NCBI GenBank assembly: GCA_012026795.1
Contig: VEPM01000026.1
Span: 1-58,409, forward strand
Source of the DNA: Candidatus Methanoperedens sp.
GTDB taxonomy: Archaea; Halobacteriota; Methanosarcinia; Methanosarcinales; Methanoperedenaceae
Reading direction: 5' to 3'
DNA: 58,409 nucleotides
Shown: in pieces, positions 2,833-39,812 of the stretch
How positions within the stretch are numbered: position 1 is the stretch's first letter
Layout of the letters: each line of letters begins with the position of its first letter
Notes under the pieces: model-generated
What the model saw: only the letters and a program-made list of their open reading frames with translations
Told to the model about the DNA's origin: nothing
The model's database searches: none
Made by a program: the position numbers and the translations under genes

Positions 2833-2897
2833 TATTTTTTAATCGTAACGGTCCCCCTATGATGAGGGAGATTCACCAGCGTATTTTGTATGTTTTA

Positions 2898-2927: not shown

Positions 2928-2962
2928 CATGCATCATGATAATGATTATAAGATGAAAGGTC

Positions 2963-2978: not shown

Positions 2979-3022
2979 CCTAACTCTATAAATTAAAAAT
3001 ATAAAATATAAACGGAGGCGTT

Positions 3023-3634: not shown

Positions 3635-3650
3635 AAATAATGGAGGCATC

Positions 3651-4235: not shown

Positions 4236-4250
4236 AAAAGGGGAATTTTT
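4226..4250 (+). terminator. Hairpin with T-tract over the archaellin 2 stop codon
   Basis: ATTCCCC (4226-4232) pairs perfectly with GGGGAAT (4240-4246) around a 7-base loop that contains the TGA stop, and TTTT follows immediately. It resembles an intrinsic terminator or processing site. Such a signal would leave archaellin mRNA in excess over the machinery genes downstream. Confidence 0.55.
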
Positions 4251-4265
4251 CCTTTTTAAAGGAAA
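4248..4265 (+). promoter_or_regulatory. Second hairpin adjoining the archaellin 3 ribosome binding site
   Basis: TTTCCTT (4248-4254) pairs with AAGGAAA (4259-4265) over a TTTA loop. The 3' arm overlaps the first bases of AAAGGAG (4263-4269), the ribosome binding site of archaellin 3, so pairing could lower its translation. Its 5' end also shares the T-tract of the preceding hairpin. Confidence 0.4.
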
Positions 4266-4274
4266 GGAGTATAT

Positions 4275-4925: not shown

Positions 4926-4940
4926 CAGCGGAGAGATCCC

Positions 4941-5339
4941 ATGGGCTTTTCAACCTCTGCTGTTGTAATTATATTCATTGCATCCATCCTGCAAATGGCA
5001 TCAATGTTCTATCCCATGGTGGATATGTCATATCGGCAGATCCAGGAAGCAAAAAAAAGTTCAAATGAATTATGGAATGAAAAATTAAATACTAAAGTAG
5101 TGATCACGAGCTGGGACCAGGGTAATAAAAATCTGACAGTATATAATAATGGCTCAATGACCCTTAATTCGAGTAAGATCAATGTAATATTAAATGGGGA
5201 ATTTGACTCGCTTTATATTGTAGATCCCCGGGGTGTCTGGCCGCCCGGGACATCCATAAATGTAACAATCGAATCTATAAGCGGCAGAGTGAAGATAATA
5301 ACAGAAAACGGCGCAGCTGGTTATTATTCGCTGTCCTAG
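4941..5339 (+). CDS. arlF: Archaellum stator protein ArlF (FlaF)
   Basis: The 132-residue protein has an N-terminal membrane helix (GFSTSAVVIIFIASILQMA) followed by an Ig-like beta domain, as in ArlF, the S-layer-binding part of the archaellum stator. Features such as VITSWDQGNKNLTVYNNG and IYIVDPRG-like text agree with the family. It starts 15 bases after archaellin 3 and precedes arlG by 9 bases, all on one strand. In many euryarchaea arlC, arlD and arlE stand between archaellins and arlF, and they are missing here. Confidence 0.85.
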   Translation: MGFSTSAVVIIFIASILQMASMFYPMVDMSYRQIQEAKKSSNELWNEKLNTKVVITSWDQGNKNLTVYNNGSMTLNSSKINVILNGEFDSLYIVDPRGVWPPGTSINVTIESISGRVKIITENGAAGYYSLS

Positions 5340-5348
5340 GAGATAAAA

Positions 5349-5804
5349 ATGGGAGCAGGCGCATCAGCAACTCAGATGGTCTTTTTCATTACATCTGTAA
5401 TAATTGCATTGAGCGTAGTCGGGGCAATTTTCCTGAACATCCAATCCATCTCCTCGGCAGCAATTGTCGGGAGTAAAACGTTTGCGGAACAATTGAAAAC
5501 GGATATCACCATCATAGGTGACCCTGAATTGATACCTTATAACAGTAGCAGCGGCATTTATACATTTTATGTAAAAAACACGGGGAAAGAAGAGCTTGAC
5601 ATACAATATATTACTGTTATTATAGACGGGACTATTGTTATTGACAGCAACCTTAACAAAACAAATTTAGGTAGCGATCCTATGTGGCTTTCAGGAGATG
5701 TACTGCGGATAAATGCGACAACATCGCTTCAGGATGGCAGTCATAACCTCAGGGTCATAACAGCAAATGGAATTGAAGATACTTTTTCATTCAGGACACC
5801 TTAA
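5349..5804 (+). CDS. arlG: Archaellum stator protein ArlG (FlaG)
   Basis: The 151-residue protein begins GAGASATQMVFFITSVIIALSVVGAI, a membrane helix typical of ArlG, and continues as a beta-sandwich containing FYVKNTGKEELD, the characteristic strand of this family. ArlF and ArlG form the pseudoperiplasmic stator complex that anchors the motor to the S-layer. The gene is spaced 9 bases after arlF and 2 bases before arlH, so co-translation is likely. Confidence 0.87.
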   Translation: MGAGASATQMVFFITSVIIALSVVGAIFLNIQSISSAAIVGSKTFAEQLKTDITIIGDPELIPYNSSSGIYTFYVKNTGKEELDIQYITVIIDGTIVIDSNLNKTNLGSDPMWLSGDVLRINATTSLQDGSHNLRVITANGIEDTFSFRTP

Positions 5805-5806
5805 AT

Positions 5807-6499
5807 ATGGCAGGATATAATTTTGTGCTTGACAGGGACGAATTGAACCAGATGCTTGGGGGAGGTTTTCCGAAAGGCTCCCTGATAATGATAGACGGTC
5901 CCAGCGGAAGTGGAAAAAGCGCACTGTGCCAGAGATTTGCTTATGGCCTTCTTGATAATAAAAATACGGTCACCTATATATCAACTCAATTAACCACGAA
6001 AAATTTCATCCGGCAGATGAAATCACTTGATTACCCGATAGGGATCAGGCTGCTAAAAGGCGAACTATTGTATATCCCGGTTTTTCCATTGTTAAAAGAA
6101 TCAAAGCCCAGAAGTGATTTTCTCCAGCGCCTTATGGGTGCGGAAGGACTTTATGAAAAAAATGTAATTATCATAGATACTCTTTCTGCGCTTATCAGAT
6201 ATGGGACTGATGCACAGAAAAGCCTTGAGCTAATTTCGTTTTTTAAGAAAATAACAGGTTTACAGAAAACGATTATCATTACGATGGATACTACAGAGAT
6301 GCCTGCTCATGTAGTTTCCGAATTTAAAGATGCAGCTGAGATCATGATAACAATCAAAATGCGACAGATGGGGACTGAGATGCTGCGGACTATGGTCATA
6401 AACAAATATTCGAATCCTGAAATACAGGTTGGGGCAATGATCGGATTCAAAGTAGAAGCAAGAAGTGGTGTAATGATCAATATTTCCGGAGTTTCATAA
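5807..6499 (+). CDS. arlH: Archaellum ATP-binding protein ArlH (FlaH)
   Basis: A 230-residue KaiC/RecA-fold protein. Walker A is GPSGSGKS at residues 31-38, and a Walker B-like NVIIIDTLS lies near 125. ArlH binds ATP, interacts with the hexameric motor ATPase ArlI and is needed for archaellum assembly. The length is normal for the family. It follows arlG by 2 bases and precedes arlI by 9. Confidence 0.92.
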   Translation: MAGYNFVLDRDELNQMLGGGFPKGSLIMIDGPSGSGKSALCQRFAYGLLDNKNTVTYISTQLTTKNFIRQMKSLDYPIGIRLLKGELLYIPVFPLLKESKPRSDFLQRLMGAEGLYEKNVIIIDTLSALIRYGTDAQKSLELISFFKKITGLQKTIIITMDTTEMPAHVVSEFKDAAEIMITIKMRQMGTEMLRTMVINKYSNPEIQVGAMIGFKVEARSGVMINISGVS

Positions 6500-6508
6500 G
6501 GGATTATA

Positions 6509-8140
6509 ATGGACGATAAATTCGAAGAAGCGCTGGCTCGAAATCCGCATCTGGCAGAATATGTGGATAAATGCAAGAAAGAAAGCGGGGTAGTGCCGGA
6601 TTTCATGCCTAAATTGTCCCGTGATATTGTAGACATTCCGGTACCTTCCATAATTTATCCTGTTGGCGACCCGATATTTATCCACCTGAAAGGCGACAAG
6701 GTCACAAAACAAATTTTTTATATTGCAATTGAGCCGGTTCTATCCCCGGATGAGTGGAAAAAATATAAGGCTATAATGGATACTATTCTTGAAAAGGCTG
6801 CAGATGAAATAGTCCCTGAAAATGAGGAACAATTAAGAAAGTTAATGATGAGACTTTTTAATGAATCGGTTCATATTGCGGGGAAACTTGCACCAATTGG
6901 AATACTTGATAAATTCCTTGGGGCAAAATCCATTTCTTTAACCCAGAATGAATATGATAAAATCTCTTATTTCCTTGACCGGGATGTCATCGGCCAGGGA
7001 CCGATAGAGCCTGTAATAAGGGATCCTTACCTTGAGGATATTCACAGTATCGGAGTAAGCGGCATATATATAGTCCATAAGATCATGGGCATGCTTACAA
7101 CCAATCTGACCTTTGATACCCAGGAAAACCTGAGTCACTGGCTGCATACCGTGGGTGAACGCATCGGCAGGCCAGTAAGCGATGCGCGTCCCCTGATCGA
7201 TGGTTCTCTTCCTGATGGTACAAGAATTGCAGCTATTTACAGTACTGACATCAGCCGGAAAGGTTCCAGTTTCACCATGAGAAAATTCATGGAAGTTCCG
7301 GCGAGTATTCCCCAGCTTATCAAGTGGGGAAGTATAGATGCTAACCTGTCTGCATATCTGTGGCTTTTGCTTGAGAACCAGATGAGCATTTTTTTTAGCG
7401 GTGAAACAGCAAGCGGCAAGACGACAATGCTTAACGCTGCATTGCCTTTCATCAGCAGCAAATCAAAAATGTATACAGTAGAAGATACCGCTGAAGTACT
7501 TCCGCCACAGCCGGCATGGCAGCAATTGATCACACGGCTTGATGGCCCGGTTGAATCCCAGGTAGATACATTTACTCTCTTAAAAGTTGCCCTGCGGTCA
7601 AGACCAAACTATATCATTGTTGGTGAAATCAGGGGCGCAGAGGGCGCAGTCGCATTCCAGGCAATGCAGACAGGACATGCTGTTCTTGCCACATTCCATG
7701 CTTCATCGGTCAGAAAACTTCTCCAGAGGCTTACCGGTGAACCTATAAATATCCCTCCAACATTTGCTGATAACCTCAATGCGGCTTTGATCCTCCAGGC
7801 AATATACAGAAAAGGCAAATATTTGCGGAGATGCACATCGGTTGATGAGATAGAAGGGTATCTGGAAGAAGCGGGAGGTGTAATAACCAGGGGAGTTTTT
7901 GAATGGGATTTTACAAATGACAGGCATCGTTTCAGGGGCATGAATAATAGTTTCCTTCTTGACAAAATAGCTACCAAGCAGGGTTATGATGATAAGCGCC
8001 TGATATATGATGACCTTGCCTTACGTGCCAAGATACTTACCAGGATGGTAGAAGAAAACATCCTGGATTATTATAAAGTAAGGGACATAATCTGGGCATA
8101 CCAGGCAAGAGGTCTTGAAGGTATTCCTTTTGAGGTATGA
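6509..8140 (+). CDS. arlI: Archaellum motor ATPase ArlI (FlaI)
   Basis: The 543-residue protein belongs to the type II/IV secretion ATPase superfamily. Walker A is GETASGKTT near 297-305 and the Walker B region is IIVGEIRGAEG near 368. The N-terminal 250 residues form the family's regulatory domain. ArlI is a cytoplasmic hexamer that powers assembly and rotation of the archaellum with ArlJ and ArlH. It ends in TGA 8138-8140, four bases before arlJ. Confidence 0.95.
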   Translation: MDDKFEEALARNPHLAEYVDKCKKESGVVPDFMPKLSRDIVDIPVPSIIYPVGDPIFIHLKGDKVTKQIFYIAIEPVLSPDEWKKYKAIMDTILEKAADEIVPENEEQLRKLMMRLFNESVHIAGKLAPIGILDKFLGAKSISLTQNEYDKISYFLDRDVIGQGPIEPVIRDPYLEDIHSIGVSGIYIVHKIMGMLTTNLTFDTQENLSHWLHTVGERIGRPVSDARPLIDGSLPDGTRIAAIYSTDISRKGSSFTMRKFMEVPASIPQLIKWGSIDANLSAYLWLLLENQMSIFFSGETASGKTTMLNAALPFISSKSKMYTVEDTAEVLPPQPAWQQLITRLDGPVESQVDTFTLLKVALRSRPNYIIVGEIRGAEGAVAFQAMQTGHAVLATFHASSVRKLLQRLTGEPINIPPTFADNLNAALILQAIYRKGKYLRRCTSVDEIEGYLEEAGGVITRGVFEWDFTNDRHRFRGMNNSFLLDKIATKQGYDDKRLIYDDLALRAKILTRMVEENILDYYKVRDIIWAYQARGLEGIPFEV

Positions 8141-8143
8141 AAT

Positions 8144-9796
8144 ATGGACACAAAAGTCATATTCCATTGCCTCGGGATCTCACAAAAAAACTATTTTATG
8201 AATTTTGTGATCCCGATAACCATTTTAGCGTTTTTATTTCCAGTTGTAATGCTGTTAATTGTTCCTTCAGTCATGGAAGGAGTTCTTTTCCTGGGTGTAA
8301 TGCTTGTCCCTATTGCACTATTTTCAATCGTGATAATATATCCCATATCAAGCCTGGAAGGGAAAAAAAAGGAAATTGACAATAATATCCATTACTATAT
8401 TACACATATGGGTGTTCTTGCTACATCCCAGATGACAAGGGTTGATCTTTTGCTCAAGCTTTCCCATACTGAAGCTTATGGTTATCTGGCAAAAGAGACA
8501 GGAAGGATATATGCTCTTGTTTTCTACTGGCATGTAAGTTTCCCTGTGGCATGCAGGTTCATAGCCCAGCGGACACCTTCCATTCTTTTTTCGGATTTTC
8601 TTGACAGGATGGCGCATTCTGTCCAGGCAGGACAGGATTTCAGGGAGTTCGTATTATCCGAGCAGGCTGTGGTAATGAAGGATTTTGTGACTATGTACCA
8701 GGACTGTTTAAATTCTATAGATATGATAAAAGAAATGTTCATTTCAATGTGCATGTCTCTTATATTCATAGTAGCATTCGCTATTATCATGCCAATAATT
8801 ACCGGCATGGATTCCATATTACTGCTTGGTGGCGCGATATTCTTATTCATAAGTACGGAATTTGTAATATTGTTATACGCCAGGTCAAAGGTGCCTGCTG
8901 ACAGGATATGGCATACACTTGAGATCGAGACAATTGCCGACCGCAGGATCAAATGGTCTATGCCAGTCTCTTTATCCCTCTGTATAATCGTTACCGGGAT
9001 TGTTGTCCCATTCTCCAATTTACCCACAACTATAATGTTTGCCACTTCGATAACCCCTTTATTACTTACAGGACTGATAGCGCGGACTGAGGAAAATAAA
9101 ATAAAAAGATATGATAATAATTTTGGGGCATTCATCCGTTCTCTTGGTGGGGCTGCCGGGTCAAGAAGCGGACTTATTCTTGAGTCATTGAAAGAATTAA
9201 CTACCCATGATTTCGGTCCGCTTTCAGAAAATGTAAATAACCTGTATAAGAGGCTCAGGACAAGGCTCAATACTCCGCGTTCATGGGAGCATTTCGCTGC
9301 AGGAACGGGGAGTAATCTGATCGAACGCTTTGCAACGATGTTCGTGGAAGGAACAAATGTGGGAGGGAAACCAACTTTAATCGGAGATATCATAAGCCAG
9401 AATTTTATAAGTATACTTTCAATGAGAAAATTGAGATACAGCAGCGCTTCAAGCCTCATAGGCGTGCTTTATGGCATGACCGCAGGAATTGCAGCGACTA
9501 TGTTCCTCGCTGTGTCTATAATTTCAATGCTGGCAAAAATGTTTTCAAATGTTTCGATCCCTGATATCGATATAGGGATTTCAATCGCTACGATATCGGC
9601 TACTAATATTCCACTGATGACAACAATGTTGATGATAATGATGATGTGTCATTCACTTATGTCTGCAATGTTAATAAGAATTGTTGATGGAGGGCATCAT
9701 TTTAATACCTATACTCATTTTGTGGGACTTGTCTGGATTTCTGCGCTGACTGCTGAATTGACACTCCAGGGAATGGGGCCGCTGTTGGGTATGTGA
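8144..9796 (+). CDS. arlJ: Archaellum membrane platform protein ArlJ (FlaJ)
   Basis: A 550-residue polytopic membrane protein of the T2SF/TadC family with hydrophobic clusters near residues 20-65, 205-245, 275-315 and 440-545, and two cytoplasmic helical domains between them. ArlJ is the membrane core on which ArlI acts. The start at 8144 follows GAGGT inside the end of arlI. It is the last gene of the archaellum operon, and a new promoter begins 12 bases after its stop. Confidence 0.93.
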   Translation: MDTKVIFHCLGISQKNYFMNFVIPITILAFLFPVVMLLIVPSVMEGVLFLGVMLVPIALFSIVIIYPISSLEGKKKEIDNNIHYYITHMGVLATSQMTRVDLLLKLSHTEAYGYLAKETGRIYALVFYWHVSFPVACRFIAQRTPSILFSDFLDRMAHSVQAGQDFREFVLSEQAVVMKDFVTMYQDCLNSIDMIKEMFISMCMSLIFIVAFAIIMPIITGMDSILLLGGAIFLFISTEFVILLYARSKVPADRIWHTLEIETIADRRIKWSMPVSLSLCIIVTGIVVPFSNLPTTIMFATSITPLLLTGLIARTEENKIKRYDNNFGAFIRSLGGAAGSRSGLILESLKELTTHDFGPLSENVNNLYKRLRTRLNTPRSWEHFAAGTGSNLIERFATMFVEGTNVGGKPTLIGDIISQNFISILSMRKLRYSSASSLIGVLYGMTAGIAATMFLAVSIISMLAKMFSNVSIPDIDIGISIATISATNIPLMTTMLMIMMMCHSLMSAMLIRIVDGGHHFNTYTHFVGLVWISALTAELTLQGMGPLLGM

Positions 9797-9807
9797 TGAT
9801 AATGAGA

Positions 9808-9835
9808 TCACACTAAATTTCACACTTTTATATAT
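9808..9835 (+). promoter_or_regulatory. Promoter of cheY copy 1 with tandem TCACAC sites
   Basis: TCACAC occurs at 9808-9813 and 9820-9825 (12 bases start to start), directly followed by the TATA box TTTTATATAT at 9826-9835. The arrangement matches those upstream of the archaellin operon and cheY copy 2. The leader to ATG 9907 would be about 45 bases. Confidence 0.6.
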
Positions 9836-9906
9836 ATCTATGTGATTGACCATACATTACTATTAACAGCTTTAAAATATAAAAATCTACATAATGTCGA
9901 GGAAAA

Positions 9907-10269
9907 ATGACTGGAAAAATATTGCTTGTGGATGATGCACCTTTTATGAGAATGATGCTGAAAAAAATCCTTGCTCCGAGTGGAAATGAATTAATTGAAG
10001 CTGTTGATGGATCAGATGGGGTGTCTAAATATAAGCAATATAAACCTGATCTTGTATTCCTGGATATAGTGATGCCAGATGTTGACGGCATAGAATGCCT
10101 GAAACAAATAATGGAATATGATAGTAAAGCCAGAGTCATTATTTGCGGCTCGATAGGGCAGGAGACAGTAGTAGATGAGGCAATTAAAATCGGTGCAGTG
10201 GATTATATTATCAAGCCATTTGATACAGCAAAAGTCCTGGCAGTCCTTGATAAAAATATGCCAGGCTGA
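9907..10269 (+). CDS. cheY: Chemotaxis response regulator CheY (copy 1)
   Basis: A single receiver domain of 120 residues with acidic pair Asp9-Asp10, phospho-acceptor Asp53 in FLDIVMPDVDG, a Ser in ICGSIGQ and the conserved Lys in IIKPFD. All residues needed for phosphorylation by CheA are present. It is about three-quarters identical to copy 2, and the similarity continues into the promoter and leader. It has its own promoter. Phospho-CheY normally signals through CheF to the archaellum motor, but no CheF gene is in the window. Confidence 0.9.
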   Translation: MTGKILLVDDAPFMRMMLKKILAPSGNELIEAVDGSDGVSKYKQYKPDLVFLDIVMPDVDGIECLKQIMEYDSKARVIICGSIGQETVVDEAIKIGAVDYIIKPFDTAKVLAVLDKNMPG

Positions 10270-10312
10270 TCATTCAGACTGCTGAATTGACAGGGTGTGT
10301 AATCATGTAATA

Positions 10313-10340
10313 TCACACCAATATCACACTTTTCTATATA
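10313..10340 (+). promoter_or_regulatory. Promoter of cheY copy 2 / che operon with tandem TCACAC sites
   Basis: TCACAC lies at 10313-10318 and 10324-10329 (11 bases start to start), followed by a TATA box TTTTCTATATA at 10330-10340. Downstream sequence (ATGTGGTTG, then ACTTTAAAACATAGAAATC) is similar to the copy 1 leader, so the promoter was duplicated with the gene. Confidence 0.6.
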
Positions 10341-10424
10341 CTGATGTGGTTGAAAATAGCATGTATATAAAACAATGGATTCAACTTTAAAACATAGAAA
10401 TCAAAAAATAATCTTGGAGGAATA

Positions 10425-10781
10425 ATGGCTGGAAAAATATTACTGGTGGATGATGCGGCATTCATGAGAATGATGCTTAAGAAGATCATTGCACCAACAG
10501 GACATGAATTGTTAGAAGCGGTCGATGGTTCGGATGGTGTTGCAAAATACAAGGAAAATAAACCAAATCTTGTATTCTGTGATATAGTCATGCCAAACGT
10601 TGATGGTATTGAATGCCTGAAGCAAATAATGGCTATAGACAGTAATGCAAAAGTCGTTATGTGCAGTTCGATCGGGCAGCAAACTGTAGTAAATGATGCG
10701 ATCAAGATCGGGGCAAGGGATTTTATTGTAAAACCATTTGACGCTGCAAAAGTTCTGGAAGCTGTTTCTAAAAATATGTGA
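10425..10781 (+). CDS. cheY: Chemotaxis response regulator CheY (copy 2)
   Basis: A 118-residue receiver domain with Asp9-Asp10, phospho-acceptor Asp53 in FCDIVMPNVDG, Ser in MCSSIGQ and Lys in IVKPFD. CTTGGAGGAATA gives a strong ribosome binding site for ATG 10425. It lies 12 bases before cheB, so this copy is the operon member, while copy 1 is transcribed separately. Asn and Cys replacements around the phosphorylation site (PNL, FCD) distinguish it from copy 1 and may tune its kinetics. Confidence 0.9.
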   Translation: MAGKILLVDDAAFMRMMLKKIIAPTGHELLEAVDGSDGVAKYKENKPNLVFCDIVMPNVDGIECLKQIMAIDSNAKVVMCSSIGQQTVVNDAIKIGARDFIVKPFDAAKVLEAVSKNM

Positions 10782-10793
10782 TAAGGTTTACCA

Positions 10794-11855
10794 ATGTCCA
10801 GGATAAGAGTTCTTGTCGTTGATGATTCAGCGTTCATGCGAAAAATCATAGTTAATATTCTGGGATCATCTCCTGATATAGAAATTATAGGCAAGGCAAA
10901 AAACGGACAGGAAGCAATAGAAAAGATAACTCAGCTTCGGCCTGATGTAGTCACTATGGATGTTGAAATGCCTGTTCTTGATGGGTTACAGGCACTTGGT
11001 TATATAATGAGTGAGTGTCCCACTCCCGTTATTATGCTAAGTGGTGCGGAATCGAACCAGGCCGATCTTACTTTGACAGCTTTTCAATATGGAGCAGTTG
11101 ATTTCATCCAGAAACCTTCAGGGAATATAAGCCTTGATATGGATACGAAAAAAGATGAATTGATAAAAAAAGTTAAAGCGGCTGCAAATGTGGCTGTCCA
11201 TAAGCTCGGATTCATAGAAGAAAAGAAAGTAAACGTTCACAAGAAAGAAAAGATCGAATCCGTACCAAGAGTCAGGACTAAAAAACTAATAATAATAGGT
11301 TCTTCCACAGGAGGACCCAGGGCATTACAGCAGGTCATACCCTTTTTACCTTCCAATCTTCATGCTCCTGTTCTTGTTGTACAGCACATGCCTCCCGGAT
11401 TTACCAAATCCCTCGCAGACCGTTTGAATTCCCAGTCCACGCTAAAAGTGAGAGAGGCTGCTGATGGTGATGTCCTGGAGATGGGAACTGTTTATATAGC
11501 TCCCGGGGATTTCCATATGATTGTAAGACAGCAAAATATTAATGGCGATCTCAGGGAAGTAGTCACACTCACAAAGACTGAAAAGGTACAGGGTGTACGG
11601 CCTTCTATTGATGTTCTTCTTAATTCTGTGGCGCCGATTTTTAAAGAAAATACACTTGGGGTAATACTTACAGGAATGGGTTCTGATGGTACAAATGGTA
11701 TCAGGAAACTAAAATCAGAAGGCGGCAAGGTGATAGCCGAGGATGAATCAACATGCGTGGTTTATGGCATGCCAAGGTCTATAATCGACCAGAAACTGGC
11801 AGATCACATTTTACCAATTGACAAAATTGCTCAGAGCATAACGGAAAATATATAG
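10794..11855 (+). CDS. cheB: Chemotaxis methylesterase/glutamine deamidase CheB
   Basis: The 353-residue protein has an N-terminal receiver domain (Asp10-Asp11, phospho-acceptor Asp56 in TMDVEMPVLDG), a linker of about 50 charged residues and a C-terminal methylesterase domain. The catalytic triad motifs are visible: IIGSSTGGPRA (Ser), VQHMPPGFT (His) and GMGSDGTNG (Asp). CheB removes methyl groups from chemoreceptors for adaptation. It sits 12 bases after cheY and 11 bases before cheA. Confidence 0.95.
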   Translation: MSRIRVLVVDDSAFMRKIIVNILGSSPDIEIIGKAKNGQEAIEKITQLRPDVVTMDVEMPVLDGLQALGYIMSECPTPVIMLSGAESNQADLTLTAFQYGAVDFIQKPSGNISLDMDTKKDELIKKVKAAANVAVHKLGFIEEKKVNVHKKEKIESVPRVRTKKLIIIGSSTGGPRALQQVIPFLPSNLHAPVLVVQHMPPGFTKSLADRLNSQSTLKVREAADGDVLEMGTVYIAPGDFHMIVRQQNINGDLREVVTLTKTEKVQGVRPSIDVLLNSVAPIFKENTLGVILTGMGSDGTNGIRKLKSEGGKVIAEDESTCVVYGMPRSIIDQKLADHILPIDKIAQSITENI

Positions 11856-11866
11856 AGGAAATAATT

Positions 11867-13783
11867 ATGGATGACATGGATGAATATAAGGAAATGTTCG
11901 CAGTCGAATCCGAGGAACATCTCCAATCAATGAATGATGCACTTCTCAGTCTTGAAAAAGATCCGGCGAACAGTGAAACAATAAATGTGATGTTCAGGGC
12001 AGCCCATACCCTAAAAGGCATGTCTGCAACAATGGGTTATGTAAATATTAAAGAACTTACCCATAACATGGAAAACCTGATGGACAGGGTCAGGAAGAAT
12101 GAAATAGAGCTTGATTCATCTGCAATAGATGTCCTTTTCGAGTGTCTTGATACACTTGAAAAAATGGTGGAAACACCGGAGAAATCCTCAGAGATTGATA
12201 TTGCTTCTCTAGTTGATAAATTATCAAAAAATAATTCAGGGTCTGTTCCATTAAAGGATGAGCAACCAGTTGTAGCTAATAATGCATCTAATAATCCCGG
12301 GGAAAAACCCGAAACAGGCAATATTTATGAAATAACCGTGACACTTCATGAATCCTGCATGCTTAAATCTGCCAGGTCAACCGTAGTGATGAGAAATCTA
12401 TCTGAGATTGGCGAAATCATTGAAACGGTTCCTTCGATAAAGGATCTGGAAGATGAAAAATTCGATCGGGAATTCAAGGTCATAATTTCGACAACAGAAG
12501 ATGCCAAAAAATTAGAAGATGCAGCAAAAAAAGTATCCGAGATATCAAAAGTGGAAGTTAAACCTCACACAGGCTCTAAACCCAGGGAAAAAGCAGAAGA
12601 TAAAACGAATGTTACTGAGGGAAGTAAGACCTCTATAAAAAGCGTACAAAGTGTGCGGGTAAGTATAGAACGCCTGGATTCGTTGATGAACCTCGTAGGG
12701 GAACTTATTATAAACAAAATCCGGTTAATGCAGCTTGCCAGTGTGCATAAACTGGATGATCTTGAGGAGACGCTTGCCAGTCTTAACCGTCTTACAAATG
12801 ACCTCCAGGAAGAGATCATGGCATCGAGGATGGTGCCTATTGAACAGATATTTAACCGGTTCCCGAGAATGGTAAGGGATCTTGCTAAAAATCAGGGGAA
12901 AGAGATCGATCTGGTCATGGAAGGCGGGGATATTGAACTTGACCGTACAGTACTTGATGAAATTGGAGACCCGCTTGTGCATATCCTGAGGAATTGCATT
13001 GACCACGGTATTGAATCTCCTGAAGTAAGGAAGCAGAATGGCAAGAACGAGAAAGGAACGATCAAATTGACTGCAAGGCGGGAAAAAAATCATGTTGCTA
13101 TTGAGGCAGTTGATGATGGCAAAGGGATGGACCCGCAAAAGATGAGAGAAACTGCTGTAAAGAAAGGATTGATGACACAGGAAGAAGCAGCAAAACTTTC
13201 TGATATTGAGGCGATAAACCTGTCATTTATGGCCGGATTCAGTACTGCTGAGAAGGTAACGGAAATCTCCGGAAGAGGAGTAGGGATGGATGTGGTGCGG
13301 ACAAAGATCGGAGGAATGGGCGGGTCGATCAAACTTGAATCTGTCCTGGGGAAAGGAACATTGATGAGACTCAAGCTTCCTTTGACTGTTGCGATCATTC
13401 ATTCACTGATGGTTAAGGTTGGTTCTGATATCTATGCCATACCTATTACCAATGTTATAAGGGACCTGTCAATTAAGAAAGAAGAAATAAAGACGATCAA
13501 GGGTGAAGAAGTAGTTCTGATACGGGGAGATGTCCTGCCTCTGATCCGGTTACATAATATCTTCGATATTAAAAGCAATGGCTCTCAAGAACTTCTTGTG
13601 GTTGTAGTAGAACGTGCAGGCAGTAATGTAGGGCTGGTAGTAGACCAGGTTATCGGCCAGCAGGAGGTAATAATCAAGAACCTTGATAATAATATATTAA
13701 AGGGAGTTAAAGGATTTGCAGGAGCCACGATCCTCGGGGATGGCAATGTTGCTTTGATCCTTGATGTGGGGACATTATTATGA
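11867..13783 (+). CDS. cheA: Chemotaxis histidine kinase CheA
   Basis: A 638-residue CheA with the standard order: P1 phosphotransfer domain with His47 in AAHTLKG, a P2-like region at about 150-235, the P3 dimerisation helices at about 255-320, an HATPase domain at about 360-505 (N box RNCIDHGIE, G1 DDGKGMD, G2 GRGVGMDVV) and a CheW-like P5 domain at the end. No cheW gene is nearby, so the adaptor must come from elsewhere. The cheR start overlaps its stop. Confidence 0.96.
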   Translation: MDDMDEYKEMFAVESEEHLQSMNDALLSLEKDPANSETINVMFRAAHTLKGMSATMGYVNIKELTHNMENLMDRVRKNEIELDSSAIDVLFECLDTLEKMVETPEKSSEIDIASLVDKLSKNNSGSVPLKDEQPVVANNASNNPGEKPETGNIYEITVTLHESCMLKSARSTVVMRNLSEIGEIIETVPSIKDLEDEKFDREFKVIISTTEDAKKLEDAAKKVSEISKVEVKPHTGSKPREKAEDKTNVTEGSKTSIKSVQSVRVSIERLDSLMNLVGELIINKIRLMQLASVHKLDDLEETLASLNRLTNDLQEEIMASRMVPIEQIFNRFPRMVRDLAKNQGKEIDLVMEGGDIELDRTVLDEIGDPLVHILRNCIDHGIESPEVRKQNGKNEKGTIKLTARREKNHVAIEAVDDGKGMDPQKMRETAVKKGLMTQEEAAKLSDIEAINLSFMAGFSTAEKVTEISGRGVGMDVVRTKIGGMGGSIKLESVLGKGTLMRLKLPLTVAIIHSLMVKVGSDIYAIPITNVIRDLSIKKEEIKTIKGEEVVLIRGDVLPLIRLHNIFDIKSNGSQELLVVVVERAGSNVGLVVDQVIGQQEVIIKNLDNNILKGVKGFAGATILGDGNVALILDVGTLL

Positions 13784-14625
13784 TGAATTTACTATCAGAC
13801 ATCATACATGAAGATGAGAAGGAATTTTCAGAATTAAAGTTGATCATTAAAAGAAAAATCGGGTTTAACTGTGAAGACTATAAACAGCCCCATCTGAAGA
13901 GAAGGCTTGCTGTAAGGCTTCGTGCGACCGAGTCAAAATCTTATAAGGATTATGCACAGATGCTTTCAAAAAGTGAGGACGAGGTAAATAAGCTTAAAGA
14001 AACATTAACTGTAAACGTCACGGAATTATTCAGGAACCCGGAAACATTTGACTCTGTCCGGAATAATGTTCTCCCGGAATTGATCAAACAGAAGGGAATT
14101 AATAATAAAGTTATCAAAATATGGAGTGCAGGGTGCTCAAATGGTGAAGAACCTTATTCGATCGCAATTATGTTGAATGAATTCCTTGGACATTCAATCA
14201 AAAGATATAATATTTCGATCCAGGCTACGGATATTGATGATGACTCCATTGCAAAAGCAGAAATGGCAATATTCCAGCCAAAACAGCTTGAAAAGATAGG
14301 CCAGGAAAGGATCAACCGGTTTTTCATAAAGAAAGACAATAATTACCAGGTCATTGATGAAGTAAAAAAACTTGTGAAAGTCAAACGCCATGACCTTATT
14401 TCGGGACCGAAATTATCAGGTTTTGATATTATATTTTGCAGGAATGTTACGATTTATTTTGAACAAAGTTTACAGGAGGTATTGTATATGAATTTTTATA
14501 ATGCCCTGAATGAAGGGGGATATTTTGTCATGGGAAAGACTGAGACTCTGGTCGGGCCTTCAACCCAGCTTTTCAAACGTTTTGATTTGAAAGAAAGAAT
14601 ATTTCAAAAGAAGGAAAAATTATGA
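13780..14625 (+). CDS. cheR: Chemoreceptor methyltransferase CheR
   Basis: The 281-residue protein shows the CheR N-terminal helical domain, then the SAM-binding motif KIWSAGCSNGEEP at about 112-124 and the family FDIIFCRNVTIYF motif near 215. It methylates chemoreceptor glutamates opposite to CheB. Its ATG overlaps the cheA stop by four bases, and its end overlaps cheC by four bases, so the genes are translationally coupled. Confidence 0.95.
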   Translation: MMNLLSDIIHEDEKEFSELKLIIKRKIGFNCEDYKQPHLKRRLAVRLRATESKSYKDYAQMLSKSEDEVNKLKETLTVNVTELFRNPETFDSVRNNVLPELIKQKGINNKVIKIWSAGCSNGEEPYSIAIMLNEFLGHSIKRYNISIQATDIDDDSIAKAEMAIFQPKQLEKIGQERINRFFIKKDNNYQVIDEVKKLVKVKRHDLISGPKLSGFDIIFCRNVTIYFEQSLQEVLYMNFYNALNEGGYFVMGKTETLVGPSTQLFKRFDLKERIFQKKEKL

Positions 14626-15239
14626 ATGATATAAAAACTCTCACGGATTTCCAGAGCGATGCATTAAAGGAAGTTGGAAACATCGGGATCGGACATGCGA
14701 CAACTTCTCTTTCACAGATGGTAAATAAACAGGTGGGGATATCGCTTCCCGAACTTAAACTGATACCTTTGCTCACGGTGCCAGCGCTTGTAAAGAATGA
14801 AGATCCTGTTGTCGGGATAATACTTGAACTCAACGGGGATGCAAAAGGTTTTGTGCTCCTTTTATTATCAAAACCAACTGCAAAGTTTTTGATAAGGCTT
14901 GTAATTGGTGAAGCCGATGTGACAAAAGGATTCGATGAAATGGAAACATCTGTCCTGAAGGAACTGGGTAATATTATGGGAGGTACATATATCTCTGCCC
15001 TTTCAAATTTCCTGTCAATAGCGATCGGTTTGTCCCCGCCATCGGATGTGTACGATATATCGGACGCGATAATTAACCAGGTTGTATGCCTGATGAGCCC
15101 GGATGTTGAAGATGTTTTATTCCTCAAGACCCAATTTGATATTAATTCTGAAAAAATCGACGGGAAGATATTGATATTTACTGATTCCCACTCACTTACA
15201 AAGATGCTTGAGGCTATCAACAAGCTGGTTGGGCGATAA
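14622..15239 (+). CDS. cheC: CheY-P phosphatase CheC
   Basis: The 205-residue protein contains both CheC catalytic motifs of the E-x2-N type: DALKEVGNIGIGHA near residues 12-25 and SVLKELGNIMGGTY near 110-123. CheC dephosphorylates CheY-P and is stimulated by CheD, whose gene follows after a gap. It is four-base overlapped with cheR. The length and dual active sites fit a class I CheC. Confidence 0.93.
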   Translation: MNDIKTLTDFQSDALKEVGNIGIGHATTSLSQMVNKQVGISLPELKLIPLLTVPALVKNEDPVVGIILELNGDAKGFVLLLLSKPTAKFLIRLVIGEADVTKGFDEMETSVLKELGNIMGGTYISALSNFLSIAIGLSPPSDVYDISDAIINQVVCLMSPDVEDVLFLKTQFDINSEKIDGKILIFTDSHSLTKMLEAINKLVGR

Positions 15240-15338
15240 TTAAATACCGCCAGGTGGGTATATTAATCAGGAATCGACTAGGCTATTTGTTAAATTACAC
15301 CTGGGCATGGATCGGTTGGCTGGAGGGCATAAACCTTA

Positions 15339-15511
15339 GAGCTTGTCTGAAAATTTGACCCACATTTGGTTTTCACACCGATTCGATGCACATAATAGGC
15401 TATAAGTGAGTATCCAGAGGCATTTTTGGACAGGATTACAGGATTTACAGGATGGAAATTAATCCAGTTCATCCTGTAAATCCTGTCCAAAATAAATATT
15501 CAGACAAGCTC
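15339..15511. mobile_element. MITE-like element with TTA target duplication
   Basis: A 173-base element is bounded by inverted termini GAGCTTGTCTGAA (15339-15351) and TTCAGACAAGCTC (15499-15511), extendable to 17 of 18 matching bases, and flanked by TTA on both sides (15336-15338 and 15512-15514). Inside lies a second inverted repeat (15424-15454 and 15470-15492). It has no coding capacity, so it would need a transposase in trans. It lies between cheC and cheD. Confidence 0.65.
15424..15492. repeat. ACAGGATT-type internal inverted repeat
   Basis: TTTTGGACAGGATT and further ACAGGATT units on the left face CATCCTGTAAATCCTGTCC on the right, separated by about 15 bases. The left arm has one more 8-base ACAGGATT unit than the right arm, indicating repeat slippage. 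RNA from either strand would fold into a long hairpin. Confidence 0.7.
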
Positions 15512-15834
15512 TTAGCAAAATCACTTGTATATAATATCAAATATTTAAAATTCAAAAAGATATCTGTACACTATTCTCTCCAGAATGGTTAAGCGGTTTT
15601 CAATAATTTCATTTTTCTGAAGCTCAGTCGACCGAATGGGATCGCCTCGATTTGAACATTTTTGTTGTTGCATTTCATGACCTGCTCAGATGCAGTGGTC
15701 GTCTCATGCAATCCTGAAAATCAAGTGAATAGTTTAAAAACCAGTGTTTTTATAACTATAATACCAATCACATCATAATAATAAGCATTATTATACTGCT
15801 TAGTTATATCTGAATATAGACGAATAATATAATT
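15512..15834. other. Gap between MITE and cheD
   Basis: This stretch has no convincing gene. A 44-codon open frame on the minus strand at about 15593-15724 reads LHETTTASEQVM... and could be a decayed gene end, but I cannot identify it. The cheD promoter is probably the TTTTTATAACTATA box near 15747-15760. It lacks the TCACAC pair seen at the other motility promoters. Confidence 0.4.
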
Positions 15835-16323
15835 ATGGATCCAAAATCTGAAAAGATAGTTATTGGAATTGCAGAACTTGTAGTTGTTCATAATCCTGCG
15901 GTACTTGTTACCATCGGTCTTGGGTCTTGTGTGGCCATCTCAATTCGTGACCCGATAGCCCGGTATGGAGGACTTTCCCATATACTTCTTCCCACTATAA
16001 CTGAGGCAAATAATAAGAGTAATCCTATGAAATTTGCAGATTCGGCCATCGAAATGGTAGTGGAAATGCTACTTGAGAAGGGCTGTCTGAAAAGCAGGTT
16101 AGAAGCAAAGATAGCTGGTGGTGCCAAAATGTTCAATATCGGAAATAATTCCATCAATATAGGGGAAAGAAATGTCGAAGCAGTTAAGAAAAAACTCAGT
16201 GAATTCAAGATTCCTATTATTGCCAGTGATACCGGTTCGAATTATGGAAGGACTGTCGAATTCAATATTGCTACAGGCATCATGACTGTAAAAAGTGCTT
16301 TTCATGAAACTAAGGAAATTTAG
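15835..16323 (+). CDS. cheD: Chemoreceptor deamidase / CheC activator CheD
   Basis: The 162-residue protein carries the CheD signature GLGSCVAISIRDP near residues 26-38 with the catalytic Cys, and the His in GGLSHILLP. The conserved Thr/Ser region IIASDTGSNYGRTVEFN is near the end. CheD deamidates receptor glutamines and stimulates CheC. The gene is separated from the che operon by the MITE-containing gap and must be transcribed from its own promoter. Confidence 0.93.
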   Translation: MDPKSEKIVIGIAELVVVHNPAVLVTIGLGSCVAISIRDPIARYGGLSHILLPTITEANNKSNPMKFADSAIEMVVEMLLEKGCLKSRLEAKIAGGAKMFNIGNNSINIGERNVEAVKKKLSEFKIPIIASDTGSNYGRTVEFNIATGIMTVKSAFHETKEI

Positions 16324-35721: not shown

Positions 35722-35928
35722 TCAAATGCCAATTAACAGGAGTTCCAACCCTGATTTTGTAATTCTTACTGTATCCTCATTTAATTCGATCAGTCCGGAT
35801 TCATCCATAAATTTGAAAATAGCTGTGTCTGAAAGCAGTAGCTGATCCCTGATATATTTAATATCCACTGTATCACCGTTTTTCAGCATTTCAAGAATCG
35901 AATCTATTTTTTCTCCGAAATTTGACAT
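35722..35928 (-). CDS. Small winged-helix-like protein
   Basis: The 68-residue protein reads like a single winged-helix unit: MLKNGDTVDIKYIRDQLLLSDTAIFKFMDESGLIEL followed by a wing EDTVRITKSGLELLL. Such proteins are common archaeal transcription-related factors. It is transcribed towards the nitroreductase 40 bases away, so the two may form an operon and the regulator may control it. That is inference. Confidence 0.65.
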   Translation of the reverse strand: MSNFGEKIDSILEMLKNGDTVDIKYIRDQLLLSDTAIFKFMDESGLIELNEDTVRITKSGLELLLIGI

Positions 35929-36091
35929 CAGTATTAGATTATATGAAGTTTCTTAAATAATATGACGGAACAAAGATTCTTAACTATTTTTCTTAATATA
36001 ATTTATAAACTATATTTAGTATTGTCTTATATTAATTCCAGTCATTGGATAATTGCCCTACCAGGGTCAAAATAAAGGAGACTGAAATAAA

Positions 36092-36190
36092 ATGGAAAAC
36101 AAGAAAAGTCAGACAAACCAAAAACAGAGAAAAGATGAAGAAAAAGTAGCAGAAGAAATGTTTAAGGCAACACGTCTATGGTTTATGTAA
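36092..36190 (+). CDS. Short lysine/glutamine-rich peptide (possible small ORF)
   Basis: ATG 36092 follows AAAGGAGACTG (11 bases upstream of the ATG) and opens 32 residues rich in Lys, Gln and Glu ending in KATRLWFM. The good ribosome binding site and its position 13 bases before the prenyltransferase gene suggest that it could be a leader peptide or small protein. No family can be assigned. Confidence 0.4.
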   Translation: MENKKSQTNQKQRKDEEKVAEEMFKATRLWFM

Positions 36191-36203
36191 AATTAATATA
36201 GAA

Positions 36204-37112
36204 ATGTTCTGGAGACAAAACCTAGATTTACTAAAGTTGTGTAACACTCCAGTCTCAATATATTCCCCATTTCCTCTCTTTGCCATATCACTTTTTTTAA
36301 TATCGCGAAATGGGTCGTCATTCTATGATTTTCCAATTCTGGCGGTTGGAATATTTGTTTCATTGGTTTTGATATTCCCCTCTAATTTATGGAACCACTG
36401 CAATGACTTAAGGGAAGATATCGCATCGGGAAAAGAAACGATTTTAACCCGGGATATCTCGATGCAAAAAAAAGCTATTATTATTTCAGTTATGCTTTTT
36501 GCCTTCTCTATGCTATTTGTTTATTATTTATCTAATGAATTTAAACGACCAATTTATCTGTACGTTCTTATCGGTTTTATAGTTACATGGTGGTATTCAG
36601 ACAATCTTATTCTTAAAAAAGTTCTTGGTTTCAGGTTAAAAGACCATTACCTGGGTGAGTTGATTGCTTATAGCATCGCAATACCCTGTTACACGTTAAG
36701 TATCTGGCTTTTGTATTCGGATTTAAATTTAAAAGGAATAATATTGACTATAGCGATCCTTTTCTTTAATATATCAGGACTGCTATTAAAAGATTTAAAA
36801 GATATATCCGGAGATAAGAAAGCAGATCTAAAAACCTTTGGTGTTGTTTTCCTTCCATCCCAACTTATAAGATACTCCTGCTACCTGATGGTATTATTTT
36901 ATTTGGTTTTATTGAATCCATTTACTTTAAAAACATTTGGTCCGGGTATGTTGATTATAATAATTCCTTTTATTTATTTTTTACAAAATACATTTATTCA
37001 TATGCATAAAAAAGATTGGACTTTAGATATAGGGGATTTTCAAGCAATTAAGTGTATGGGTAATTCAATATATGGATCTTTTATTTTTATCGGATTGAGT
37101 GCATTTTTTTAA
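36204..37112 (+). CDS. UbiA-family prenyltransferase
   Basis: The 302-residue membrane protein has about eight hydrophobic segments and both Asp-rich motifs of UbiA enzymes: NLWNHCNDLREDIASGKE near 61-78 and KDLKDISGDKKADLKTFG near 196-213. These bind Mg2+-prenyl diphosphate. The acceptor (quinone precursor, glycerol phosphate lipid or other) cannot be read from the sequence. It overlaps the convergent FIST gene by four bases. Confidence 0.85.
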   Translation: MFWRQNLDLLKLCNTPVSIYSPFPLFAISLFLISRNGSSFYDFPILAVGIFVSLVLIFPSNLWNHCNDLREDIASGKETILTRDISMQKKAIIISVMLFAFSMLFVYYLSNEFKRPIYLYVLIGFIVTWWYSDNLILKKVLGFRLKDHYLGELIAYSIAIPCYTLSIWLLYSDLNLKGIILTIAILFFNISGLLLKDLKDISGDKKADLKTFGVVFLPSQLIRYSCYLMVLFYLVLLNPFTLKTFGPGMLIIIIPFIYFLQNTFIHMHKKDWTLDIGDFQAIKCMGNSIYGSFIFIGLSAFF

Positions 37113-38509
37113 ATCTCCAGGCATGTACTTGTTCCACCGCTATTGAAAAAAGAATTGTGGTGGGTTTCAGACAGATAATTTCTCAATCTGAATTCTGTTG
37201 GAATATATGCTGACGTTGGCGCTGTGATAATTCCAAAATAATTATCACCCAATAATTTATTTATTTTATCTTCATATTCAAGAGTTTTCTTCCCGAATGC
37301 TGCGATAGTTCCAAAATCAATAGAGAAAAAAACAAATCTTTTATCATTATATTTCAAATTATTTAAACAGGACAAAAATGAATCAAATTTGTCTTCAATT
37401 AATTCGTATACAAGTGCAACTTCTTCGGAATAATCAGAAATATCCATATAAAAAGGAAACAAATCAAAAGGAAGATATGATCCCATCCCCAGAAGAAATG
37501 CACCATTTGTTTTTTTATTAAGGAATAAAAGGGCGTAGGGCATCTGGACTTTGAAATCACCTTTGTCAAGATGCTCACTTATTTGTTTTTCTTTTTCTTC
37601 TGATATATATATCAGGTTTTTTACGGCCTCGGTGGGTGACTTGTCATCCAAGGATATCAATACATTTTTTTCAGACCTTGCTTTAAACTCCTTGATAATT
37701 TTAAATTCATTGCTCACTATAAGCTTCGTTTCATCTAGAGTTTTCCCTTTATCAGGAAAGATATCATCATAAATGGCACTGACATTATTTTTCTCTATGG
37801 TCAGTGCGGCAATACCGCCATCAATATCTTCAAAATTACAGAATATATTAGGAGAGTTGAACCTGACATGTGTATGCAGTACATTTATACCTATAATTGG
37901 GACTTTGTAATTTGTTTGTCTGGCAAACAGGTTTAATATTGCTGATGGTTGGTTGATAATGCTTTCTTTATCACAGTAGTCAGAGAATTTTCTCACCGAC
38001 TCTTTCTGTTTTTCTAAAGTCTCTATTTTAATTTTATTACTATAATAAAAACCGTTTGCTGCAAATTGGGCGGATTTTATAGCTCCTGGTACGTGTACTA
38101 CTGGAAAATGCAGCGCAACAACCCCATTTTCACATTTTACCTTTGCTGCAAGTTTTTTTGCCGACCCAATTGCAGAATTACCTTTAATCCCATCCACCCG
38201 TATCCTGGCATCGCTATCCTCGCACAGTACAAGTGCCGCACCGTCCGTCCTCATGTCATGGGGATAGATCATACCATCCACTGAGGCTCCTGTTTGGGGT
38301 ATGTCGCCAAATTCATTATGAAATATATCAAGCATTGCCTGATATTTACCATGATATTTTAGAGTAGCGTAGAACAAAACAAGATCAGGCTTAAAATCAA
38401 GCCTCTCACGGGCCTGATTTATTATATCAATAGCAGCCTCCCTGTGATCTTTCTTATTGCTAAATAAAGTAATAGATCGCGTCTTCTCACCCGTGGTTGA
38501 ATTATACAG
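37109..38509 (-). CDS. FIST domain sensory protein
   Basis: The protein has the FIST N-domain (RSITLFSNKKDHREAAIDI, KPDLVLFYATLKYHGKYQ, GASVDGMIYP) and FIST C-domain (VPYALLF-like MPYALLFLNKK, FDSFLSCLNNL, FFSIDFGTIAAFG). FIST domains are proposed to sense small ligands such as amino acids. The domain begins upstream of TTG 38377, the first canonical start, and the open frame reaches 38542. CTG 38507-38509 or TTA 38537-38539 are possible non-canonical starts, so the 5' end given is provisional. It is the third gene after a KaiC-like ATPase and a Roadblock protein. Confidence 0.72.
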   Translation of the reverse strand: MYNSTTGEKTRSITLFSNKKDHREAAIDIINQARERLDFKPDLVLFYATLKYHGKYQAMLDIFHNEFGDIPQTGASVDGMIYPHDMRTDGAALVLCEDSDARIRVDGIKGNSAIGSAKKLAAKVKCENGVVALHFPVVHVPGAIKSAQFAANGFYYSNKIKIETLEKQKESVRKFSDYCDKESIINQPSAILNLFARQTNYKVPIIGINVLHTHVRFNSPNIFCNFEDIDGGIAALTIEKNNVSAIYDDIFPDKGKTLDETKLIVSNEFKIIKEFKARSEKNVLISLDDKSPTEAVKNLIYISEEKEKQISEHLDKGDFKVQMPYALLFLNKKTNGAFLLGMGSYLPFDLFPFYMDISDYSEEVALVYELIEDKFDSFLSCLNNLKYNDKRFVFFSIDFGTIAAFGKKTLEYEDKINKLLGDNYFGIITAPTSAYIPTEFRLRNYLSETHHNSFFNSGGTSTCLEI

Positions 38510-38548
38510 TTCAACCTGCTTATATTTCTTTCTATTTAATGATTATAA

Positions 38549-38902
38549 TTATGTCACACATGCTTCTATGAGTTTTGTCGCACGCAGTGTCTCAAGCGAT
38601 ATAAGCTGCTGGTTGGCCTCAGCTTTAGTAACAGTAACAAGTACTGTAGATCTTGAAGAAGGAGCAATCAGGATGCGGTTGTTCCTGAAATAAAAAATGG
38701 TTTCCTTTAAACCGTCCCTGTTCATCTCCCCGAGCACCCGGCTTATATGTTTCTCAAGCCAGAACATAGTTTCCAGAAGGTGTTCCCTGTAACCAGGGAC
38801 CCTTATGGTTATGGGCACCCCATCTATCCTGTATAACATACAGGCTTCGATCCCTTCAATATCATAGAGTTGGTCAAGAGTGTCTTCAAGTTCGATTTTC
38901 AT
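38549..38902 (-). CDS. Roadblock/LC7 domain protein
   Basis: The 117-residue protein has the MglB/Roadblock pattern: LDQLYDIEGIEACMLYRIDGVPI, a central helix ETMFWLEKHISRVL, and strands TIFYFRNNRILIAP and STVLVTVTK. Proteins of this type regulate small GTPases or form signalling platforms. The start overlaps the end of the KaiC-like gene by 17 bases, so co-translation is expected. No Ras-like GTPase gene is in the window. Confidence 0.82.
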   Translation of the reverse strand: MKIELEDTLDQLYDIEGIEACMLYRIDGVPITIRVPGYREHLLETMFWLEKHISRVLGEMNRDGLKETIFYFRNNRILIAPSSRSTVLVTVTKAEANQQLISLETLRATKLIEACVT

Positions 38903-39812
38903 AACTTTTTATCTCTTCCCCCAGGACAAGTTCAAGAATTTGTTGCGGGTCTTCATCATGTACCCAGTTTTTCCGCACAGATTCAATTTTTACCTTTAAT
39001 TTTTGACCCAGTTTTCCCATGGCTTTTGTTTTTTCAATAGCCTGCACAAACCTGTCATCGAATTTGGTTTTTGGCATTACCCGGTCAATTTGTCTCTTCG
39101 AAGCTCTCAGCACGATTCCTAATCCAGTTTCTATAGAATAAGGATATATCCCTTCACCATGTTTGGATCCCCTATGTTTCATAATCCTGATTGTCCTGTC
39201 ATACATTTCCCCAAAACCAAGATTCTGCATGAATAGAACCGTATCAGATAAATATAGCGGTGTAGATAATAGCCTGTTCATATGCTGGAAATCTCCTGTA
39301 GTTCCGTAGTTGGTAGCAGTTGCACCATCGGCAGGTTCTTCCAGAACTACAACAGTGGTTCCAAATGCTCGCATATCCTGGAATATTGTACTGATTGATT
39401 TTCTTTTCTCTTTATCGGAATAAAATGTAGGATATGTGAAGGGATCAATTACTATTCGCGGATTTGGTCCGGGACTTGATTTCTTTATGATTTCTGTAAT
39501 ATCAAGGCTCGGAAACTCCAGGTCTTCTCCAAAAATATGGACTATTTTCAGATCCCCTGTCTCTATATAATCTTTAATGACCCCCCATCCTATGTCTGTG
39601 CAATCACGAATAATCTGCTGCTGTGACATCTCAAAGGAAACGTAAATTACTTTTTCACCGTGATTCAGGCCGAAAAGTGAGTATTGCAATGCAAAAGTGG
39701 TTTTACCTACACCCGGCCCTCCATAAATTGAAGTGACACTATTTTTTCTGAACCCTCCATCCATCAGTTCATCAAGACCATATATCCCTGTTAAAATCCT
39801 ACCCGTTTTCAT
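38886..39812 (-). CDS. KaiC/RadA-like ATPase
   Basis: The 308-residue protein is a single-domain KaiC-family ATPase. LTGIYGLDELMDGGF opens the domain, Walker A is GGPGVGKTT at 31-39, the glutamate region is YVSFEMS, and a Walker B-like RIVIDPFTY lies near 120. A C-terminal extension of about 75 charged residues follows the core. Archaeal KaiC homologues act in signalling, and ArlH in this window is a distant paralogue. It heads the unit with the Roadblock and FIST genes. Confidence 0.85.
   Translation of the reverse strand: MKTGRILTGIYGLDELMDGGFRKNSVTSIYGGPGVGKTTFALQYSLFGLNHGEKVIYVSFEMSQQQIIRDCTDIGWGVIKDYIETGDLKIVHIFGEDLEFPSLDITEIIKKSSPGPNPRIVIDPFTYPTFYSDKEKRKSISTIFQDMRAFGTTVVVLEEPADGATATNYGTTGDFQHMNRLLSTPLYLSDTVLFMQNLGFGEMYDRTIRIMKHRGSKHGEGIYPYSIETGLGIVLRASKRQIDRVMPKTKFDDRFVQAIEKTKAMGKLGQKLKVKIESVRKNWVHDEDPQQILELVLGEEIKSYENRT

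Follow-up and report, generated by a model that had tools for sequence, protein, structure and literature searches.

A four-gene locus encoding a KaiC-like ATPase, a Roadblock/LC7 protein, a FIST-domain protein and a UbiA-superfamily prenyltransferase was analysed in a 58,409-nucleotide (nt) stretch from a Candidatus Methanoperedens-type genome. This whole stretch is referred to as the window, and all positions follow its own numbering. The four genes almost certainly form one conserved unit, and the locus probably represents a signalling system not described before, with a tie to an isoprenoid compound. According to the reading preferred here, which is given a probability of roughly 45%, the FIST protein senses a compound that the UbiA prenyltransferase makes or uses, and signals via the Roadblock protein to the KaiC switch. 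The features of the locus are as follows.

38886-39812, minus strand: KaiC-like single-domain RecA-type ATPase of 308 amino acids (aa), from PF06745 and motifs
38549-38902, minus strand: Roadblock/LC7 (MglB-like) protein of 117 aa, from its predicted fold; overlaps the KaiC gene by 17 nt
37109-38482, minus strand: FIST-domain protein of about 457 aa without an output domain, from PF08495, fold and aligned start
36204-37112, plus strand: UbiA-superfamily membrane prenyltransferase of 302 aa, from PF01040 and Asp motifs; convergent with the FIST gene
37109-37112: TTAA, the 4-nt overlap common to the FIST and UbiA stop codons, from the sequence
38487-38491, minus strand: GGTGA, a Shine-Dalgarno-like motif before the FIST ACG codon, from inspection of homologues
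36052-38499: probable exchanged cassette of FIST and UbiA with their upstream edges, from DNA identity and trees

Conservation and composition of the unit

The distribution of the genes was determined in 60 related genomes and in a phylum sample of 393 genomes, from which 20 regions were fetched and gene-called. Among the 60 relatives, the FIST gene was present in 24 and the UbiA gene in exactly those 24. A KaiC orthologue was found in 24 genomes, 23 of them shared with the FIST set, and a Roadblock gene in 25, again with 23 in common; the remaining two are a decayed fragment (G038) and a weak match (G047). In the phylum sample FIST occurred in 49 genomes (leaving out one borderline match, G091), Roadblock in 59 and both in 47, and in 42 of these 47 the Roadblock gene immediately precedes FIST in the same orientation. 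The Fisher p-values for FIST and Roadblock are tiny, and inflated since shared ancestry is ignored. Conserved co-occurrence, the check proposed with the original prediction made for this DNA, was thereby strongly passed across relatives and phylum, with Roadblock in 47 of the 49 FIST genomes.

The gene order KaiC, Roadblock, FIST and convergent UbiA was observed in 18 of the 20 phylum regions. This count includes a region with a tandem second FIST gene (G246), one with two small open reading frames (ORFs) between Roadblock and FIST (G068) and one with KaiC in two ORFs (G097), while the remaining two both come from G208, whose locus is split into FIST-UbiA and KaiC-Roadblock. FIST and UbiA were convergent in all 46 pairs examined, with overlapping 3' ends in 43, and KaiC and Roadblock were co-directional in 41 of 41 pairs. 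The adjacency of the module is the most conserved among the compared regions. Upstream neighbours (PAPS-reductase-like, exonuclease VII, RadA) turn over while the four genes stay, and the group is kept together across several archaeal families. Because the arrangement recurs across families, it is not a matter of chance. The original prediction had described a three-gene unit of KaiC, Roadblock and FIST. This unit is real and conserved but incomplete, the invariant convergent UbiA gene being its fourth member. The KaiC-type ATPase overlaps the Roadblock gene as claimed, and FIST indeed follows, although at about 66 nt from its conserved ACG start position and not within the 40 or so bases proposed.

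Among named organisms, the window FIST gene has its closest relatives in Methanoperedens sp. BLZ2 and comparable records. The module is carried, for example, by Methanoperedens, ANME-2 cluster archaeon HR1, the GoM-Arc1 archaeon GB37, Mnemosynella biddleae and Archaeoglobi archaeon JdFR-42, and many matches of the phylum sample fall in group f9. The G038 genome (L095) retains KaiC and Roadblock fragments without FIST or UbiA, which fits joint loss of the module. Viral contigs and plasmids were also searched and contained no FIST relatives.

The KaiC-like protein scored 118 bits against PF06745 in a Pfam profile search (cut-off 26.6, E=4e-34). Its Walker A motif (GGPGVGKTT at 31), Walker B D123, K-x-R finger (K212/R214) and H218 are invariant in 41 homologues. 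It is no circadian KaiC, having 308 aa with one ATPase domain instead of two and a circ_KaiC score of 60 bits against an NCBIfam cut-off of 546, and it is not ArlH by score either (38.9 bits, NCBIfam equivalog cut-off 215). For the small protein encoded at 38549-38902, the window copy lies below the Pfam cut-off (PF03259, E=0.021), and 11 of 14 relatives gave Roadblock matches in Pfam with a best E-value of 4e-4. Its predicted model, with a predicted local distance difference test score (pLDDT) of 89, matched an Asgard Roadblock protein (E=9e-8) and MglB (E=2e-6) in Foldseek. Taking the alpha-beta-beta-alpha-beta-beta-beta-alpha arrangement as the mark of the Roadblock/LC7 family, the modelled protein has this fold. 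Residues R25, D27 and G28 are invariant across 43 homologues.

A GTPase gene that could serve as partner of an MglB-type protein is absent from the four-gene unit. A fusion of a KaiC domain with an Arf/Ras-like GTPase was considered for this role; it is encoded in this genome, yet merely 17 of the 49 FIST genomes have it, and it was rejected. The fusion is part of a separate module that also has a KaiC-like protein and, at some of the loci, Roadblock (L081:4833-6705, L082, L083 and L085; in this genome on another contig, G000:C21:44203-45366). This module lies close to UbiA-FIST in four genomes and has a broader spread in the phylum.

The FIST protein exceeded the Pfam cut-off (PF08495, E=1.6e-5), as did all 15 members tested, while a FIST_C domain was not detected by sequence. 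Its predicted model (pLDDT 88.9) matched the FIST domain of human FBXO22 with E=3e-8 and probability 1.00 at 8-9% sequence identity, so that the product of 37109-38482 has, at the level of the model, a FIST fold. Weak and distant similarity was also found to cyclic amide hydrolases and chorismatases, the latter with a probability of 0.25 or less. Four polar residues (N200, D240, E251, D389) are strongly conserved, and none of the His or Cys residues reaches 85% conservation among 48 homologues. In G009 (L089:10925-12303) the FIST gene is split over two overlapping frames and has a FIST fragment in front of it; this copy is decaying or mis-assembled.

The product of 36204-37112 can be placed by its sequence among the UbiA prenyltransferases (PF01040, 53.8 bits, cut-off 34.2, E=2e-14) with intact motifs. 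Both catalytic motifs, NxxxDxxxD (64-72) and DxxDxxxD (197-204), are present, with N64, D68, D72, D197, D200 and D204 invariant in 45 homologues, and a simple scan gave several hydrophobic segments. Among solved structures, a sequence-profile comparison put chlorophyll a synthase nearest (E=2e-5). No NCBIfam equivalog cut-off was reached, and the host genome has five further UbiA-family matches.

Two sub-units and the FIST-UbiA block

Two sub-units can be told apart in the locus, KaiC-Roadblock and FIST-UbiA. In three f2-family genomes the former is divergent from the latter, and the assemblies of G015, G016, G024 and G208 keep both pairs but at separate places. A second FIST-UbiA pair, without adjoining KaiC-Roadblock, is found in several genomes of the Methanoperedens type, among them this one.

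In the window, a paralogous pair has most likely replaced FIST-UbiA in a single 2.45-kb block, as judged from identities, the DNA span of similarity and discordant trees. Compared with the proteins of G018:C63, the window KaiC and Roadblock are 93% and 97% identical, and FIST and UbiA 62% and 58%. Towards the unlinked pair G018:C81, FIST and UbiA reach 82% and 76%. The DNA similarity to this unlinked pair amounts to 80% over exactly 36052-38499, that is, FIST and UbiA and little else, while the sequence on either side shares 85-94% identity with the syntenic loci of G021, G018 and G003. The trees of FIST and UbiA agree in assigning the window copy to one clade of six members (support 100 and 99), whereas its position in the KaiC tree is a different one. 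Over a common set of five loci, FIST-UbiA diverges faster than KaiC-Roadblock.

The context of FIST-UbiA hints at isoprenoid chemistry, on account of mevalonate-type neighbours and a flavoenzyme. UbiD/UbiX-family genes are assigned to the archaeal modified mevalonate pathway. The second FIST-UbiA pair of G000, G018 and G021 (L065, L066 and L068) sits between genes of this family and an aconitase-X gene, a gene type used in the same pathway (PMC10040528). A lycopene-cyclase-like flavoenzyme is encoded near FIST-UbiA in five loci of two families and is homologous between them (32% over 362 aa). It was considered as a fifth member of the unit; its close orthologues are confined to two relatives and three phylum regions, and it is hence accessory.

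Proposed mechanism and rival explanations

In the proposed mechanism, UbiA would make a prenylated compound at the membrane, and the cytoplasmic FIST protein would bind this product or its precursor as a sensor, the two forming an input pair. FIST, whether ligand-bound or free, may then act through Roadblock, as a bridge, on the KaiC ATPase; the signal to downstream partners would be the ATP/ADP or oligomeric state of KaiC, with KaiC-Roadblock as the output pair. A sensory role is in line with solo FIST proteins such as NosP, which regulate a partner kinase (PMC8846402). What the analysis establishes is the anatomy and evolution of the locus, from gene content, folds and active-site motifs to gene order, co-occurrence and the probable block exchange; the sensing, bridging and output roles are inferred. 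Several points weigh against this reading. That the genes are neighbours is no proof of FIST binding a UbiA product, and FIST could be an enzyme, given the distant similarity of its modelled fold to enzyme folds. Certain FIST-UbiA pairs are remote from any KaiC-Roadblock pair, and in G004 FIST-UbiA is present while KaiC-Roadblock was not found in that genome; because such pairs stand alone, FIST-UbiA can have an independent function.

The main rival, unlikely but the most serious, makes FIST an enzyme or carrier that produces or delivers the acceptor prenylated by UbiA, with KaiC-Roadblock regulating the synthesis. FIST-UbiA being the tighter pair and able to stand alone, the flavoenzyme and mevalonate-pathway neighbours and the conserved polar residues of FIST all agree with this, as does the fold similarity to chorismatases, whose products are aromatic acids. 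That similarity is weak, however, the best fold match is the FBXO22 FIST domain, which recognises a protein partner, and sensing is the role described for the known solo FIST proteins (PMC8846402). Considerably less probable is cell-to-cell signalling with UbiA as synthase and FIST as receptor of a diffusible prenylated signal, the FIST-UbiA types setting specificity and being swapped as cassettes. Block exchange beside a nearly unchanged KaiC-Roadblock pair and the faster divergence of FIST-UbiA would be expected in this case, and the convergent arrangement resembles some LuxI/LuxR pairs, which is a lead only. However, an exporter or secretion signal is not part of the unit, no sign of an extracellular product was seen, and the exchange was examined in a single event. 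The least probable explanation is a chance or merely inherited neighbourhood of no functional meaning. Shared ancestry of the sampled genomes does inflate the co-occurrence p-values, but the module is the best conserved adjacency while its upstream neighbours turn over, and the split loci still hold both pairs.

Three more specific roles each appear very improbable. FIST as a heme or nitric oxide sensor like NosP would suit its solo architecture and the nitrate-reducing lifestyle of Methanoperedens, and bacterial FIST proteins have been linked to nitric oxide or heme (PMC8846402); against this stand the lack of a conserved His or Cys and the occurrence of the module in lineages not known for denitrification, and UbiA would be left unexplained. 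Another such role is a KaiC action on the archaellum motor through an ArlH-like partner, or on cell polarity; the original prediction had named ArlH-like partners or cell polarity as possible targets. Roadblock proteins regulate MglA-type GTPases, and the window has an archaellum/chemotaxis cluster some 20 kb from the locus. The presence of ArlH nevertheless shows no association with the module (20 of 24 module genomes against 23 of 36 others, p=0.15), the near-complete genomes G034 and G050 have the module but no ArlH that reaches the cut-off, and the KaiC-like protein itself scores far below the ArlH cut-off, so the link to ArlH or the archaellum was not upheld. Slightly less probable still is that UbiA is a menaquinone prenyltransferase (MqnP/MenA) and the module tunes quinone synthesis. 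MqnA/D (PF02621) is positively associated with FIST in the phylum sample, occurring in 40 of the 49 FIST genomes. Nine FIST genomes, among them the near-complete G034, G077, G203, G246 and G310, are without it, however, 63 MqnA/D genomes are without FIST, and the further UbiA-family proteins of the host also speak against this role; a strict rule is largely refuted, and the link was set aside as a correlation by lineage.

The locus can be compared with known systems. Archaeal KaiC-like ATPases have been proposed as signalling hubs (Makarova, Galperin and Koonin 2017, cited through PMC5847659), and the likeness, as far as the citing source conveys it, is a KaiC-superfamily ATPase beside signalling-type domains in archaea. 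NosP-NahK and other solo FIST sensors share a stand-alone FIST protein associated with a switch that it possibly regulates; there the partner is a histidine kinase, whereas here it is KaiC-Roadblock, with no conserved heme-binding His or Cys and with a link to a prenyltransferase. MglA/MglB and Ragulator-type systems likewise have a Roadblock-fold protein next to a P-loop NTPase, which is a small GTPase there and a RecA-type KaiC here. Human FBXO22 has the FIST domain that is the best structural match, but its F-box is absent here, its partners differ and sequence identity is low. Chlorophyll synthase and other UbiA enzymes have the same catalytic aspartate motifs, in contrast to which the window UbiA belongs to no NCBIfam equivalog by score. 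The original prediction knew of no described system with KaiC, Roadblock and FIST. No description turned up in the literature searched either, the Makarova 2017 paper being outside this search: later papers citing it that were searched do not mention FIST, nor UbiA where searched.

KaiC-like ATPases have been proposed as central archaeal signalling hubs whose inputs are largely unknown. The locus assigns fixed partners to one KaiC subfamily, among them a candidate sensor and a candidate enzyme for the compound that would be sensed, and its carriers span lineages such as Methanoperedens, ANME-2, GoM-Arc1 and Archaeoglobi. What an archaeal KaiC responds to thereby becomes directly testable, and the answer would tie archaeal signal transduction to isoprenoid chemistry. 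A bolder version, in which a dedicated UbiA, a FIST receptor and an ATP-dependent Roadblock-KaiC switch handle a private isoprenoid signal, with FIST-UbiA types swapped as specificity cassettes, would be a categorically new archaeal system and is regarded as rather doubtful.

The ACG start of FIST and neighbouring genes

The TTG at 38377, called as FIST start by the program, is too late, the frame being open to 38542. The conserved start position in the window is ACG at 38480-38482, behind the GGTGA motif. In 29 aligned homologues this position holds ACG in 11 cases (the window copy and those of L065-L072, L078 and L080) and ATG in 18, and GGTG stands 5-6 nt upstream of ACG in nine of the 11. 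In G018:C63 and G021:C75 three sense codons lie between the upstream stop and the ACG, with no usual start among them. The first strand of the FIST model begins at residue 2 (block pLDDT 94-98), and the ratio of non-synonymous to synonymous substitution rates over codons 2-46 is about 0.16 in the pairs that could be computed. The N-terminal region downstream of ACG is therefore very likely translated.

The ACG-bearing copies come from several independent assemblies, and parsimony needs three changes for the ACG/ATG distribution. A single clade of ACG genes was disfavoured by the approximately unbiased test (p=0.02), for a group defined only after tree inspection. The alignments make ACG a candidate non-canonical archaeal start codon. 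A start at the GTG inside GGTG with a frameshift was rejected, as homologues differ in whether this GTG lies in the FIST frame; because of this variation GGTG is better read as a Shine-Dalgarno motif.

One further ORF adjoins the locus.

35722-35928, minus strand: accessory 68-aa winged-helix-like ORF, divergent from UbiA; sub-threshold in Pfam and conserved at genus level only

The absence of a DNA-binding gene from the set, as originally noted, holds for the core of the unit, but this winged-helix-like ORF lies beside UbiA. Its family (c4) occurs in 12 loci and is directly divergent from UbiA in nine of them, the window and eight other Methanoperedens-type loci; it was not seen beside UbiA in the phylum regions. 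The neighbouring family c7 is a clear HTH_45 family. A role of the module in defence was discarded, PADLOC having given only weak generic ATPase matches.

Upstream of KaiC, the gene for the PAPS (3'-phosphoadenosine-5'-phosphosulfate)-reductase-like protein has lost its ATG by a small deletion relative to L069 (41780-41835, minus strand). Its frame stays open, with ATT/ATA codons at the start, and it may use another start or be truncated. The archaellum and chemotaxis cluster of the window extends over 2200-16323 and comprises several archaellin-like ORFs, ArlH, and ArlI/J-like, CheB, CheA, CheR, CheC and CheD-like ORFs.

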